Positions 57,383-62,875 of a DNA stretch of 64,000 nucleotides are shown here, piece by piece. The position numbers and the translations under genes are program-made. The notes beneath the pieces are model-generated. The model was not told the origin of the DNA. It saw nothing but the letters and a program-made list of their open reading frames with translations, and ran no database searches. Position 1 is the stretch's first letter; each line of letters starts with the position of its first letter. The DNA is from an uncultured Acetobacterium sp. (GTDB lineage Bacteria > Bacillota > Clostridia > Eubacteriales > Eubacteriaceae): contig NZ_OY760905.1 of the NCBI RefSeq assembly GCF_963664135.1, positions 310,001 to 374,000 of the forward strand, in the 5' to 3' direction.

Positions 57383-58111
57383 ATGAACCTCATTGAAAAT
57401 CTGAAGATAAATGAAAATGATGTAATAACAATCACCGGTGGTGGCGGGAAGACTTCTTTGATGATGCGTTTGGGAAAAGAATTATCGAAAAAAAGAATAA
57501 ACCATGTGCTGACTACTACCGCAAAAATCTGCATCTCGGATCTGCCGGGTGCACAAAGTATTATTTGTGAGAATATCGATGACATCATTGATGTGTTAAA
57601 AAAAGACCCCCAACAGGCGTGGATCATCGGCAAGGAAAAAGTAACTGACCAGAAAATATCGGGCTTCGCAGAGGAAGAATTAGTCATTTTAAAAAATGCG
57701 ATCAAGCCTTTAATTATCATTAATGAGGGGGATGGATCAAAAAGAAAACCCTATAAGTTTTATGGTGACTATGAACCCATGATCCCGCAGATCACAACCA
57801 AACTTATTCACGTAATCGGTGCCGAGGTACTGTATAAAAAAATAGATAATAAAACATTTCATCGTTCTGAATTATATGGTGATACTCAAGCAATTTTTGA
57901 TGAAGACGTTTTATTTCAGGCCCTCAAAGATTTTATCAAAAACAAATTAGACGCTAAATTGGCAGGCGATACCCAGCGGATTCTTTTTATTAATAAAGCC
58001 GATGGCGAAAATTTAAAAAATGCCCGAATCATGTCAAAAATCGGTGCCCCACTTTTTGACCGTTGCCTAATGGGATCGTTACAAGAGGACTGGATCGAAA
58101 CGGTGAAGTAA
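57383..58111 (+). CDS. yqeC: YqeC-like protein (selenium-dependent hydroxylase accessory)
   Basis: A 242-residue P-loop protein with TITGGGGKTSLMMRLG (residues 17-32), TTAKIC and INEGDGSKRKPYK, the YqeC signature. In clostridia YqeC genes cluster with selenium-dependent molybdenum hydroxylases and their maturation factors. None of those is in this window, so this copy is isolated. Protein activity is unproved in the family. Confidence 0.85.
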   Translation: MNLIENLKINENDVITITGGGGKTSLMMRLGKELSKKRINHVLTTTAKICISDLPGAQSIICENIDDIIDVLKKDPQQAWIIGKEKVTDQKISGFAEEELVILKNAIKPLIIINEGDGSKRKPYKFYGDYEPMIPQITTKLIHVIGAEVLYKKIDNKTFHRSELYGDTQAIFDEDVLFQALKDFIKNKLDAKLAGDTQRILFINKADGENLKNARIMSKIGAPLFDRCLMGSLQEDWIETVK

Positions 58112-59106: not shown

Positions 59107-59574
59107 TCAGTGGCGTTTCCCGGAAAAACTGCTTAATTCAACCGCGATCACAGTGGTTTGGTTGACAACCCGCTGGTCAAAGGAAACGTCATCGCGACCG
59201 GTCTGGTGTTTCATAATGCTGTTAAAGGCGCTGAGCTTTGCTTCATTCGTTTCGATAAAGATAGCCCGACCTTCACCAATAAAGCTTTCAAAATAACAGC
59301 TGTAATCACAGCCCGTTTCGCCAGTGATTAGTTCTTTCATCTGATCCAGCTCAATACAAACCTGGTTATTCTTTTTCAACAATTCAATTTTCCGGCCTTC
59401 TTTGGCGCAGTGTAAAAAAATGGTAATTGCGGAACCAGATATCTGATAGCCAAAATTCATCGGCACGATATAGGGTTTATCACCATCAACCATGCCGACC
59501 CGGCAAACCTTGCATCCCTTGATCATTTCAATAAGTTCGGTTTCATCTTTCACTTCACGATTCGATCGTCGCAT
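59107..59574 (-). CDS. Pyridoxamine 5'-phosphate oxidase-fold (NimA-like) flavoprotein
   Basis: A 155-residue split-barrel protein: CRVGMVDGDKPYIVPMNFGY at residues 24-43, IFLHCAKEGRKIELLKKN for the FMN phosphate region and YFESFIGEGRA. NimA-type proteins bind FMN or heme and some reduce nitroimidazoles; most are uncharacterised. It is monocistronic, with AGGAGG-like site (AGGAAAAAG) weak but usable. Confidence 0.83.
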   Translation of the reverse strand: MRRSNREVKDETELIEMIKGCKVCRVGMVDGDKPYIVPMNFGYQISGSAITIFLHCAKEGRKIELLKKNNQVCIELDQMKELITGETGCDYSCYFESFIGEGRAIFIETNEAKLSAFNSIMKHQTGRDDVSFDQRVVNQTTVIAVELSSFSGKRH

Positions 59575-59724
59575 CTTTTTCCTCCTGAAACGGTATGACT
59601 TGTATCATTTCGTTTCCTTAAAATTATTTTTGTCTTAACCTAAACATTGGTCTTAGTCTATAGTAACGAAAATTATTTAATGCGTCAAGACTAGTATCCG
59701 GCTTGAGATGATTCAATTGCTGGA

Positions 59725-59753
59725 TTGAATTCCCCGGTTCGGCAGCTTATAAT
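59725..59753 (+). promoter_or_regulatory. Promoter of the sulfur-relay operon
   Basis: TTGAAT (59725-59730) and perfect TATAAT (59748-59753) with ideal 17-base spacing, about 245 bases before the first gene. Confidence 0.65.
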
Positions 59754-59821
59754 AGTATAGTAGTTAGAAAAAAATTAAAAAGTCAGATGAAAAACAGTAA
59801 CATGTTGCAAAAAATTGTCGA

Positions 59822-59875
59822 CTGTTCACAAAAACAGGTGCTTTGGTTAATCCGAAGGCCTGCTTTTTTTTAGCA
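59822..59875 (+). terminator. Leader terminator, possible attenuator of the sulfur-relay operon
   Basis: An imperfect stem (ACAGGTGCTTT against GAAGGCCTG with a two-base bulge) is followed by eight T residues. It lies between the promoter at 59725 and the TusA-like gene, so it could stop transcription early. An upstream competing pair AACAGT (59794) / ACTGTT (59821) is visible. Confidence 0.5.
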
Positions 59876-60004
59876 TTTTTATTGAAATAATGATTTAAAT
59901 TTATTTTTTAAGTAAGCTGCACATAAAAGGGTATGAAAAAAGTAGCATCACTTTGCGGCGAATACGAGTAAATGATAACAAGAAAAATTTAAGGAGGTAT
60001 GATC

Positions 60005-60226
60005 ATGGCAGAAATTCATGTTGATGTGAGAGGTGAAACATGTCCGGTACCCCTGGTCGAAATGCGTAAAGCGGTGAGGAAGGCGCAACCTGGTGATACG
60101 ATCGAGATTATCGGGAATAATGCCGCCTCAAAAAAAGAAATCCCGATGGCCGCTGACGCATTGTCATTAGCAATAATCAGCGTTGAAGAACACGATGGAA
60201 CCTGGACCATAAAAATCCAAAAGTAA
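60005..60226 (+). CDS. TusA/SirA-family sulfur carrier
   Basis: From the ATG at 60005 (AAGGAGG 7 bases upstream; an ATG at 59999 is too close) the product is 73 residues. It has the persulfide-carrying Cys13 in CPVP and the usual alpha/beta fold. TusA-like proteins pass sulfane sulfur between desulfurases and acceptors. It is the first gene of four with spacers of 9 to 12 bases, which sets its role as the likely carrier of this operon. Confidence 0.9.
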   Translation: MAEIHVDVRGETCPVPLVEMRKAVRKAQPGDTIEIIGNNAASKKEIPMAADALSLAIISVEEHDGTWTIKIQK

Positions 60227-60238
60227 GGAGGCTATTCC

Positions 60239-60658
60239 ATGGCTGATAAAACAACAATCATTGTTCAAAGCGGCGATATGGATAAATTGTATAGTGCCCT
60301 GATTGTTTCCAACGGATCGCTGGCAATGGGGATGGATGTATCCCTGTATTTCACTTTCTGGGGACTGTTACGGCTTAAAAAAGGTGGACTGGAAAAAGGC
60401 CCGCTGTCAAAAATGCATTTTCTGGGCCTGGGAAAAAAGATGATGCTGGGACGGATGAAAAAAAATAACGTCGCTTCACTGGAACGACTGATGTCGGATT
60501 TTAAGGAATTAGGCGGCAAGATTATCGCCTGCGAAATGACCATGGATATTATGGGGTTAAAGCGGGAAGACTTGATCGAAGACATTATTGATGACTACGG
60601 GGCTGTCGGTACCTACATCCAAGAAGCCAGACATTCGGCCATTACCTTGTTTATTTAG
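60239..60658 (+). CDS. DsrE/DsrF-like protein
   Basis: The 139-residue protein starts TTIIVQSGDMDKLYSALI and continues with the DsrE-family fold and the SLYFTFWGL strand. It has a single Cys98 in IIACEMTMDIMGLKREDL, which corresponds to the active Cys of many DsrE-like sulfurtransferases. Such proteins form trimers or hexamers and exchange persulfide with TusA. It follows the TusA-like gene by 12 bases. Confidence 0.85.
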   Translation: MADKTTIIVQSGDMDKLYSALIVSNGSLAMGMDVSLYFTFWGLLRLKKGGLEKGPLSKMHFLGLGKKMMLGRMKKNNVASLERLMSDFKELGGKIIACEMTMDIMGLKREDLIEDIIDDYGAVGTYIQEARHSAITLFI

Positions 60659-60667
60659 GGGGAAATC

Positions 60668-61831
60668 ATGGAAAAAGTATATTATTTTGATAATGCGGCC
60701 GCCACCCGCCTGGATGAACGCGTTTTAGACGTACTAACGCCCCTTTATTTTGATCGTTATTCGGTGGCGACCTCGGAATTTGGCTATTCACTGGGGATTG
60801 AAGCCCGGGAAGCCCTGGAAGAAGCCCGGGGCCAACTGGCCGATGCGCTTGGTGCCAGCAGCAATGAGTTTATTTTTACCTCGGGGAGTGCCGAGTCCAG
60901 CAATTTGGCCTTAAAAGGCGTGGCCAAGGCGCTGGGAGCAAAAAAAGGCAAGCACCTCATTGTTTCTAAAATTGAAGATTTCCCGGTGCTGTACAGTGCC
61001 CGAACCCTGGAAAAAGAAGGCTTCACAGTCGATTATCTGGGCGTGGACGCCGATGGGTTTATCAATCTTAAGACCCTGGAGTCGCTGATAACACCAGAAA
61101 CCATCCTGGTATCAATTCAACACGGCAATCAGGAAATCGGCACCATCCAGGATATCAAAAGCATTGGCGAGCTCTGTCATGCCAAGGGGGTGCTCTTTCA
61201 CACCGATGCTACCCACACCTTTATGCGGGTGCCGCTGGATGTTACTGACATTCCGGTTGATTTGATCACGGTTTCGGCGCATACCCTCCACGGGCCTAAG
61301 GGCATCGGGGGGCTCTATATCCGAAAAAAAACACCCTTGGCCAAAATCATGGATGGTGGCTTCCAGGAGTTTGATCTGCGCGGCGGGATGGATAATATCC
61401 CTGGTGCCGTCGGGTTTGCCAAAGCCGCCGAACTGATCACCGACTTAGAAAACCAGCGGCTGATGGACATGCGGGATAAAATCATCAGCATGGTGTTTGA
61501 GCAAATCCCGGATGTGATGCTAAATGGCCATCCCAGTAAACGGACCCCGCAGAACGCTAATATCACCTTTCATTACGTGGAAGGAGAGTCGATCACCCTA
61601 CATCTGGACATGTACGGGATTGCCGTCAGTACCGGTTCCGCCTGCTTCAGCCGTTCGCTGGAAGCCAGTCACGTCATTGCCGGAATCGGCGGCGATCACG
61701 AACGGGCCCATGGCTCCATCCGGTTGACAGTGGGTCGCTTCAATACCATGGATGAGGTTGTTTTTGTGGTCGAAACGCTGGCAAAGATTGTCGAAAATTT
61801 AAGAAAAATCAGCCCCTTGGGGAGAAAATAG
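60668..61831 (+). CDS. Cysteine desulfurase-like protein lacking the PLP lysine
   Basis: A 387-residue class V aminotransferase-fold protein of the NifS/IscS line. The N-terminus YYFDNAAATRLDERVL and FTSGSAESSN are normal. At the PLP site the expected SGHKxxGPKG reads SAHTLHGPKG, so Lys206 (E. coli IscS numbering, which aligns directly) is Thr. His104 is Asp (KIED), Asn155 is Gln (GNQEIG) and Gln183 is His (DATH); Asp180 is kept. The sulfur Cys is present (Cys326 in STGSACFSRSLEAS). It probably cannot make the PLP aldimine but may still carry sulfur or act as a scaffold partner. The codon ACC at this site is clear in the DNA, with an intact frame on both sides. Confidence 0.85.
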   Translation: MEKVYYFDNAAATRLDERVLDVLTPLYFDRYSVATSEFGYSLGIEAREALEEARGQLADALGASSNEFIFTSGSAESSNLALKGVAKALGAKKGKHLIVSKIEDFPVLYSARTLEKEGFTVDYLGVDADGFINLKTLESLITPETILVSIQHGNQEIGTIQDIKSIGELCHAKGVLFHTDATHTFMRVPLDVTDIPVDLITVSAHTLHGPKGIGGLYIRKKTPLAKIMDGGFQEFDLRGGMDNIPGAVGFAKAAELITDLENQRLMDMRDKIISMVFEQIPDVMLNGHPSKRTPQNANITFHYVEGESITLHLDMYGIAVSTGSACFSRSLEASHVIAGIGGDHERAHGSIRLTVGRFNTMDEVVFVVETLAKIVENLRKISPLGRK

Positions 61832-61842
61832 GAGGAGAAAAA

Positions 61843-62478
61843 ATGACAAGTCCCTATAATGATATTGTGCTGGAACACTTTAAAAACCCCCGCAATACCG
61901 GTCGGATTGAAAACCCCGATGGCAAGGCCACCGAGGGCAGTCCTGCCTGCGGCGATATGGTGTCTCTATATCTGAATGTCGATCCCGAAACAAAGGTGAT
62001 CACCGACATCAAATTTGAATCTTATGGCTGTGCCTCAAACATTGCCACGGGTTCGATTATCACCGAATTGGCCAAGGGCAAAACCATCGAGGAAGCCAAA
62101 AAAATCACCTGGCAAGATGCCTCCGAGGCACTGGGCGGGCTGCCGAAAATCAAGGCTCACTGCTCTGTTCTGGCGGTGGAAGTGCTACGCTCGGCGATCC
62201 AGAATTACGAAGAAAAACACGGTTTGGTGACAGCCAAAGAAGATACCACCGAAGAAATCATTCGAAAAAGATTAAAGAAAGTTATGAATCCTATTAAAGG
62301 GCTGGACATGGTGGCCACCCATCTGGTCAAGGAAATTGATATCAACGATGGGGTAGTTCGAATCGTTCTGGACTTACCAGAAAACCATCAGTTCGCCAAT
62401 GCCATTAAAGAAGATGCCATTGAAAAAATCGAATCACTTTGGGACATCAATCAGGTCATTGTCGAATTTACCGACTGA
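61843..62478 (+). CDS. IscU scaffold fused to a DUF59/MIP18-type domain
   Basis: The 211-residue protein has an IscU domain (1-130) with all three cluster Cys: Cys36 in GSPACGD (with Asp38), Cys63 in YGCASN and Cys107 in KAHCSVL. After a linker, residues 139-211 have the pattern of a DUF59/MIP18 domain (KRLKKVMNPIKGLDMVATHL and VRIVLDLPENHQFANAI), without the Cys-Pro motif. DUF59 domains assist Fe-S targeting. The fusion suggests that a cluster is built and handed on within one chain. AGGAGG precedes the start. Confidence 0.85.
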   Translation: MTSPYNDIVLEHFKNPRNTGRIENPDGKATEGSPACGDMVSLYLNVDPETKVITDIKFESYGCASNIATGSIITELAKGKTIEEAKKITWQDASEALGGLPKIKAHCSVLAVEVLRSAIQNYEEKHGLVTAKEDTTEEIIRKRLKKVMNPIKGLDMVATHLVKEIDINDGVVRIVLDLPENHQFANAIKEDAIEKIESLWDINQVIVEFTD

Positions 62479-62517
62479 TCCAAGTGCCGTAACTCAGCAT
62501 CGGTAACTATTGAATTT

Positions 62518-62551
62518 AAAAAAGAGCAGCTTAGCTAAGCTGCTCTTTTTT
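62518..62551 (+). terminator. Intrinsic terminator of the sulfur-relay operon
   Basis: A near-perfect stem (AAAAAAGAGCAGCTTA with TAAGCTGCTCTTTTTT) 40 bases after the last stop. It also ends the converging small gene. Confidence 0.9.
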
Positions 62552-62556
62552 AATGG

Positions 62557-62655
62557 TTATCGGGCTGTCTTTGAAACCGCAATGATGCTTAAGACAAGAG
62601 CGGCCACACTAATGGTAAGAGCCACTACACCTGCAACAAAAGCTGCTATTTTCAT
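62557..62655 (-). CDS. 32-aa single-span membrane peptide
   Basis: A small gene with an AGGAGG site 7 bases before its ATG at 62655. The product is MKIAAFVAGVVALTISVAAL followed by VLSIIAVSKTAR: one membrane helix with a short basic tail. Such strong translation signals make it likely to be real. It could be a small membrane regulator or a toxin-like peptide, but no antisense RNA or antitoxin is evident. It is followed upstream on the same strand by another small gene. Confidence 0.6.
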   Translation of the reverse strand: MKIAAFVAGVVALTISVAALVLSIIAVSKTAR

Positions 62656-62692
62656 TTTCACACCTCCTAACAATTTTGGGTAACACGATTAA

Positions 62693-62875
62693 TTAATCTT
62701 CTTCGTCAAAACTGTTCATACAATAATCTTCAAGCGCTTCTAAAAGAAAGACCAGGTTGCCAGTCATGTTTTCGGCAGTGGTAACGACTATTTCTTTTTC
62801 CTCTTCGGTGAGATCCATAAATTCCTCTTCAAGATCACATAAGCGCTTTATTATAAATAGTAATTCTGTTTTCAT
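62693..62875 (-). CDS. Small acidic helical protein, 60 aa
   Basis: From the ATG at 62875 (CAGGAG site 5 bases upstream) a 60-residue acidic, all-helical protein is read, with LCDLEEEFMDLTEEEKEIVV and an acidic end (NSFDEED). I do not recognise it. The 37-base gap to the small membrane gene suggests that both are on one transcript. Confidence 0.6.
   Translation of the reverse strand: MKTELLFIIKRLCDLEEEFMDLTEEEKEIVVTTAENMTGNLVFLLEALEDYCMNSFDEED

Follow-up and report, generated by a model that had tools for sequence, protein, structure and literature searches.

A four-gene operon of an uncultured Acetobacterium species bears on the question of how anaerobes that dwell in sulfide build iron-sulfur (Fe-S) clusters, and of whether cysteine is required for this. 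The operon lies in a stretch of 64,000 nucleotides, called the window here (contig NZ_OY760905.1, positions 310,001 to 374,000; the source genome assembly is a single 4.08-Mb contig). It encodes the sulfur carriers TusA and DsrE, an IscU scaffold fused to a DUF59 domain, and a protein with the fold of the cysteine desulfurases NifS and IscS that lacks the lysine for pyridoxal 5'-phosphate (PLP). The label NifS* was coined in this analysis for this protein and is used also for its relatives of the same type. The link of TusA, DsrE and IscU with NifS* is a strong cross-phylum pattern. The features of the operon are as follows.

59991..59997, + strand: AAGGAGG ribosome-binding site of tusA (sequence reading)
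60005..60226, + strand: TusA-like sulfur carrier with a CPxP cysteine; open reading frame (ORF) open from 59999 (Pfam PF01206, E 1.5e-20)
60239..60658, + strand: DsrE-family sulfur carrier with conserved Cys98 (Pfam DrsE_2)
60668..61831, + strand: NifS*, a 387-residue NifS/IscS-fold protein without the PLP lysine (Pfam Aminotran_5)
61283..61285, + strand: codon of Thr206, at the position of the Schiff-base lysine (alignment to IscS)
61643..61645, + strand: codon of Cys326, the sulfur cysteine of the mobile loop, kept in 80/80 relatives
61843..62478, + strand: IscU scaffold fused to a DUF59/MIP18-type domain (Pfam PF01592, NifU_N, and PF01883, FeS_assembly_P)
62516..62553, + strand: rho-independent terminator-like hairpin at the operon end (-22.3 kcal/mol, z -6.26)

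An intact reading frame in a tight operon had been proposed by the first-pass annotation, which was made from the sequence alone, and the ORFs, the Pfam matches and the intergenic gaps (12, 9 and 11 bp along tusA-dsrE-nifS*-iscU) agree with this. The ATG at 60005, 7 nt past AAGGAGG, is a likelier start of tusA than 59999.

A Desulfurase Homologue without the Active-Site Lysine

E. coli IscS (L147) served as the reference. Compared with it, NifS* carries H104D, N155Q, Q183H, K206T (the SGHK motif reads SAHT) and Y208H, and Thr243' of the partner subunit is replaced by Met. D180, S203, H205, R352 (Arg354 of E. coli IscS) and the loop cysteine C326 are retained. Thr243' (a phosphate ligand), S203 and H205 are taken here to be PLP-site residues of IscS. 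The first-pass annotation had read the changes at 104, 155, 183 and 206, and the retention of D180 and C326, in the same way. The set of residues lining the PLP pocket was taken from PMC9978102.

By the features that define a type I cysteine desulfurase, NifS* has the IscS fold and the loop cysteine and lacks both the Schiff-base lysine and the PLP contacts H104, N155, Q183 and Thr243'. Its scores in NCBIfam lie below the curated cut-offs (414.5 against 530.75 for NifS, 355.3 against 643.2 for IscS). The fold and the C-terminal SPL agree with the IscS forms that were solved with TusA and IscU, and in a predicted model the loop around Cys326 (residues 325–331) has a predicted local distance difference test (pLDDT) score below 50. 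In E. coli IscS, the exchanges H104Q, Q183E and K206A gave zero desulfurase activity (PMC9978102). Judged from the sequence, the view that PLP-lysine chemistry at residue 206 is not available to NifS* is supported.

Conservation of NifS* and Its Module

The relatives studied are the best 80 of 152 loci found by six peptide patterns of the window NifS*, and are 62–98% identical to it; a lysine-bearing member ranking below the best 80 could have escaped. Tabulated as the first-pass annotation had suggested, position 206 is T in 72, L in six, S in one and P in one, and Lys in 0/80. D104, Q155, H183, H208, R352 and C326 are each present in 80/80, the Q155 count being partly built in by the search, since one of the patterns (IQHGNQEI) includes residue 155; no pattern covers 104, 183, 206 or 326. 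Thr243', a position absent from the earlier residue list, is replaced by a non-Thr residue in 77/80. The lysine-bearing controls from the host's bacterial family have H104, N155, Q183, K206, Y208 and T243' in 20/20. A sequencing error or a strain mutation at T206 was considered and rejected, because Lys is missing from all 80 relatives and the gene recurs in 10 other genomes of the genus. Against one relative (L037), dN is 0.009 and dS 0.174 (non-synonymous and synonymous divergence), which indicates purifying selection; the other seven within-genus pairs are near or at synonymous saturation.

Read off the record titles, the 80 relatives come from Chloroflexota (25), Methanobacteriota (23), Bacillota (17), Myxococcota (4), Thermodesulfobacteriota (3), Thermoplasmatota (3), Atribacterota (2), Nitrospirota (1) and Actinomycetota (1), with one unassigned. 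The closest named relatives (80–98% identity) are mostly Acetobacterium. Of 19 genomes in the host genus, 11 carry the gene, against 0/21 in the family's other genera (matches with E < 1e-190). Among sampled genomes of the host's phylum it was found in 5/299, host included (E 1e-130), and in the phylum around a Methanosarcina genome in 54/392 (E 1e-135).

IscU-DUF59 is present at 77 of the 80 loci, DsrE at 72 and TusA at 69. All four genes occur together at 64, mostly in the order TusA-DsrE-NifS*-IscU (55 loci) and otherwise as NifS*-IscU-TusA-DsrE (nine). Beyond these four, the commonest neighbour gene clusters (by BLAST clustering) reach only 9/80 loci. The relay cysteines are invariant: the CPxP cysteine of TusA in 69/69, the DsrE cysteine in 72/72 and C326 in 80/80. 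In IscU-DUF59, three cysteines (C36, C63, C107), an aspartate (D38) and the LPxxK residues L100, P101 and K104 are each kept in 77/77. The window TusA has the TusA domain and its CPxP cysteine, and the window DsrE has the expected fold and cysteine with an NCBIfam DsrE2 score of 69.2, under the cut-off of 210.

The expectation that the T206-type group always stands beside TusA, DsrE and IscU is borne out at those 64 loci but not as a strict rule. Six of the 16 incomplete loci are contig ends (L045, L055, L064, L078, L104, L112), and at L044 and L099 TusA is present but was masked by the overlapping-ORF rule of the count. Where flank is present, DsrE is missing from L079 and L110, TusA from L084 and IscU from L113; L106 and L108 have a TusA-like ORF about 2 kb upstream and no DsrE, and L096 has neither TusA nor DsrE. 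A Desulfosporosinus NifS* (L090:4992-6161) has none of the three partners nearby and reads SVCFN instead of SACFS. In the archaeal sets, L096, L249 and L250 are NifS*-IscU-DUF59 pairs without adjoining TusA or DsrE, possibly through loss or relocation of the relay.

Lysine Loss and TusA/DsrE Neighbours

A second lysine-less clade was found around A. fulgidus IscS. Its members have H104, A183 (45) or V183 (1), N205, D206 (45) or E206 (1) and no Arg352; A. fulgidus IscS2 itself is G479:C1:512341 (100% identity after rounding). Unexpectedly, the genes of the inactive, structurally known A. fulgidus IscS proteins have DsrE only (L215) or TusA and DsrE (L216) as neighbours. Both carriers also occur at L217, L218, L223 and L225–L227, and TusA only at L219–L222.

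The neighbours were compared over the NifS-like genes of L037–L116, L147 and L215–L334 (212 ORFs, of which 207 were kept after removal of five that were weak or short). Eighty of these loci were hand-picked going down the list of the A. fulgidus IscS2 search, among the matches listed. A neighbour was scored when TusA or DsrE lay on the same strand within 2.5 kb. Naming the NifS* type after D104, Q155 and H183 (DQH), a neighbour was found for 81/87 DQH genes, 1/1 NQH variant, 44/45 Asp-type and 1/1 Glu-type genes, and for 1/73 lysine-bearing genes. One gene had been counted twice (L047 and L254); with the copy removed, the final figures are 126/133 lysine-less against 1/73 lysine-bearing genes. 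Among genes adjoining IscU they are 124/130 against 0/43. The lysine-bearing exception (L240:7121-8487) adjoins TusA and has no IscU. Among the lysine-less genes scored without a neighbour, those of L064 and L104 stand at a contig end. For 66/73 lysine-bearing genes the flank was 2 kb or more on each side. In the lysine-bearing loci of the host's family (L018–L036), TusA or DsrE was found in 0/19 within 1.5-kb flanks. The TusA and DsrE profiles were trained on NifS* partners and later extended, so very distant carriers could escape; the Fisher p value for the link ignores relatedness and is not counted as proof. Lysine loss was thus found to go with TusA/DsrE adjacency in two lysine-less clades, one of which holds both A. 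fulgidus genes. The rule is also a caution that genes of acetogens, Chloroflexota, syntrophs and methanogens that bear the name 'cysteine desulfurase' may lack that function.

Trees were built with the active-site columns omitted. The DQH type (29 rows) forms one clade with a Shimodaira–Hasegawa-like approximate likelihood ratio (SH-aLRT) support of 100, and the Asp/Glu type (26 rows) another with 98–99, both starred branches. A larger quick tree placed lysine-bearing rows beside the DQH clade, giving two losses. However, a joint lysine-less clade is not rejected by the approximately unbiased (AU) test (p 0.56), so the claim of two independent losses was dropped and the lysine was lost once or twice. 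A sign test for the neighbour link was also given up, as there are too few independent pairs. As a separate observation, an Altiarchaeales contig (L051:7719-9372) carries a lysine-bearing NifS-IscU pair just downstream of its NifS* module, and in the quick tree no other lysine-bearing row lies nearer to the DQH clade than this pair.

The Former PLP Pocket

The first-pass annotation held that the protein had lost its PLP site. The lysine and several PLP contacts are indeed replaced; what is left, however, is not a decayed pocket but a rebuilt and strictly conserved one. In the wider NifS* set, D104 is found in 87/88 and Q155, H183 and R352 in 88/88. K226 is likewise found in 88/88, and is Lys in 0/73 lysine-bearing and 0/46 Asp/Glu-type proteins. 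In the A. fulgidus type, by contrast, the pocket is relaxed: position 155 is N (20), D (10), G (8), S (4) or P (4), and position 352 is V (26), L (17), E (2) or I (1), with 183 nearly fixed all the same. The two types therefore need not work alike. H208 is also present in 88/88 NifS* proteins, but it proves little, because position 208 is inconstant in the wider lysine-bearing set (Y in 37, H in 13, others in the rest, n = 73); Tyr208-to-His was therefore dropped as a mark of NifS*. With its new form held strictly constant and the substrate arginine kept, the former PLP pocket may bind another ligand. The conserved residues could alternatively serve structure.

What NifS* May Do

The reading that fits these observations best, and to which an even chance is given, is that NifS* acts as a platform independent of PLP, which accepts persulfide on Cys326 from TusA/DsrE and gives the sulfur on to IscU. 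The four genes would then form one portable module that gives an IscU scaffold its sulfur without PLP-dependent desulfuration of cysteine. The sulfur would come from sulfide, polysulfide or a further sulfurtransferase and would be carried as persulfide by DsrE and TusA. TusA would dock on NifS*, and its persulfide would shift to Cys326 on the mobile loop. The loop would bring it to IscU-DUF59, whose cysteines would receive it for the building of an Fe-S cluster, and the DUF59 domain might help to pass the cluster on. In this role NifS* would have the shape of IscS but would relay sulfur and dock its partners. The direction of flow, the source of the sulfur and the product, presumably Fe-S clusters, are what we infer, and the same holds for the loading of Cys326 and its supply of IscU.

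Several points weigh against this reading. For the DQH-type members it is drawn from sequence only, and a strictly conserved pocket is unneeded for a mere, or a dead, platform. Only one or two losses of the lysine in evolution underlie the neighbour rule, which is phylogenetically thin, with one independent pair on starred branches and two on all branches. Some NifS* genes with flank have no TusA/DsrE neighbour (L096, L249, L250, and L090, which also has no IscU). The related M. acetivorans IscS1 formed inclusion bodies, and the cysteine of A. fulgidus IscS was proposed to be a cluster ligand and not a sulfur donor (both PMC7585200). Finally, a search of 25 NifS* genomes, chosen from the 80 loci, for further NifS/IscS-type genes (E 1e-40 or better) gave at least one more match in 18; a lysine-bearing one was read in 16, the other two being G043 and G047. 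The module is therefore often not the sole sulfur route. In the host, too, a canonical NifS-IscU pair (L245) is present, besides a SufB/D-type protein.

In four of the other seven genomes a SufS-like protein was found (L152–L155), of which only L152 reached the SufS-family cut-off. In a Syntrophaceae metagenome-assembled genome and two of Methanofastidiosum, all drafts of unestablished completeness, the PF00266 matches (E 1e-10 or better) other than NifS* were all best matched by transaminases or SepCysS, under the cut-offs of those families.

One alternative, judged unlikely, is that NifS* works as was proposed for A. fulgidus IscS (PMC7585200; structure in PMC9769115): it would only hold IscU, with Cys326 as a temporary cluster ligand, and sulfide would need no carrier to enter, TusA/DsrE being at work in a different branch. 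The SMS system and IscU are able to use sulfide anaerobically (PMC12192291, PMC13015791). However, such a scaffold leaves unexplained both the co-occurrence of TusA/DsrE with lysine loss and the strict DQH pocket of NifS* with its retained Arg352.

That pocket is the ground for another alternative, also improbable: a ligand other than PLP, for example cysteine persulfide on Arg352 or a metal on some of D104, D180, H183, H205 and H208, would be bound and used to load or reduce sulfur on Cys326. The near-invariance of D104, Q155, H183, K226 and R352, against the relaxed A. fulgidus-type pocket, speaks for it, but the ligand is only putative, folding or contacts within the dimer may account for the conservation, and H208 is not specific to NifS*.

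It is very unlikely that NifS* is still a PLP enzyme that cleaves cysteine or a related substrate, with PLP bound non-covalently or on another lysine, for which the invariant K226 is the candidate. E. coli IscS K206A retains some PLP (PMC9978102), and a figure legend draws PDB 4EB5, an A. fulgidus structure, with PLP (PMC9769115). Yet H104, N155, Q183 and Thr243' are replaced as well, and the K206A variant is the inactive one cited above. The earlier claim that NifS* cannot release sulfur by PLP chemistry stands for lysine chemistry at residue 206 and not for non-covalent binding of PLP. That NifS* is a decayed or decoy copy with no function of its own is hardly credible: the active-site lysine is gone, but the gene has stayed intact in bacteria and archaea alike, dN lies far under dS and the cysteines are invariant.

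A bolder reading, which is doubtful, would make NifS* a new sulfur enzyme. Its PLP pocket would have been rebuilt (D104, Q155, H183, K226, with the substrate arginine kept) to take another ligand, cysteine persulfide or a metal for example, and Cys326 would receive its sulfur independently of PLP, either from TusA/DsrE or from a small persulfide, feeding a dedicated IscU-DUF59. This would be a cysteine-desulfurase-independent ISC pathway in anaerobic bacteria and archaea, self-sufficient in, for example, Methanofastidiosum, where the two draft genomes lack a visible lysine-bearing desulfurase.

Surroundings of the Operon

A pattern scan of 59500-62700 did not report the hairpin at 62516-62553, and a promoter scan of the same region gave seven matches against 5.5 expected, which is no evidence of a promoter. 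A regulatory RNA in the window was discarded, as no Rfam match reached gathering scores. A YqeC-like selenium-cofactor gene (TIGR03172) lies at 57383-58111, 1.9 kb upstream of the operon; a dedicated selenium role for the operon was rejected, since genes beyond the four do not recur across loci. A pyridoxamine-oxidase-fold protein is encoded at 59107-59574 on the minus strand, with a weak match to nitroimidazole reductase far under the cut-off.

Comparison with Known Systems

The NifS* system is real and conserved, and earlier publications foreshadow part of it. The first-pass annotation knew of no precedent; A. fulgidus IscS and M. acetivorans IscS1 have, however, already been published. For the module itself, or for the rule that joins lysine loss to TusA/DsrE, no published description was found in a search that reached few subscription papers.

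In E. coli, an IscS-fold protein also has TusA as a partner (3lvj), but cysteine sulfur goes from IscS to TusA (PMC3397948), whereas the reverse flow is proposed for NifS*. The MIS (MisS/MisU) and ISC/NIF systems likewise have an IscS/IscU-type pair; MIS is described with a cysteine desulfurase (PMC12192291, PMC12442378), whereas NifS* has no lysine. Sulfide itself can feed related proteins: A. vinosum DsrE was persulfurated by sulfide alone (PMC3397948), E. coli IscU anaerobically uses H2S without IscS in an iscS mutant (PMC13015791), and SMS uses sulfide (PMC12192291, PMC12442378).

M. acetivorans IscS1, described in 2020 as being without the lysine and some PLP residues, has the same STGSACFS loop as NifS* (PMC7585200). 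The IscS1-IscU1 pair (MA0808-MA0807) lies in a cluster with four extra genes, and the 24.2 kDa of IscU1 fits a fusion. It differs in how it was published, namely as possibly non-functional or AfIscS-like, with cluster genes of 'unknown function'. IscS1 is marked as proteome-detected in Table 1 of that paper, whereas its text names only IscS2 and IscU2 as consistently detected (PMC7585200). Methanosarcina relatives in the present set carry the module; their likeness to IscS1 is by its published description, not its sequence.

The closest known system is A. fulgidus IscS/IscU (IscS2; PDB 4eb5, 4hvk, 4r5f), whose IscS is the best PDB sequence match of NifS*. It has no lysine and no desulfurase activity, and IscS-IscU structures have been solved (PMC7585200); the legend that depicts 4EB5 with PLP calls for caution over a claim of no PLP. 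The IscS fold, the missing PLP lysine, the loop cysteine and the adjoining IscU are shared with NifS*, and so, as found here, are DsrE, or TusA and DsrE, ahead of iscS. There are also differences. The A. fulgidus protein has Asp for Lys, keeps H104, and has A183, N205 and no Arg352, whereas NifS* has T206, H183, H205 and R352; its partners are a shorter DsrE type and a shorter IscU without the DUF59 part, and the two types form separate supported clades, although a joint clade is not rejected. That A. fulgidus IscS has a solved structure and yet is inactive has been a puzzle, to which the neighbour rule in the two clades offers a common, testable answer.

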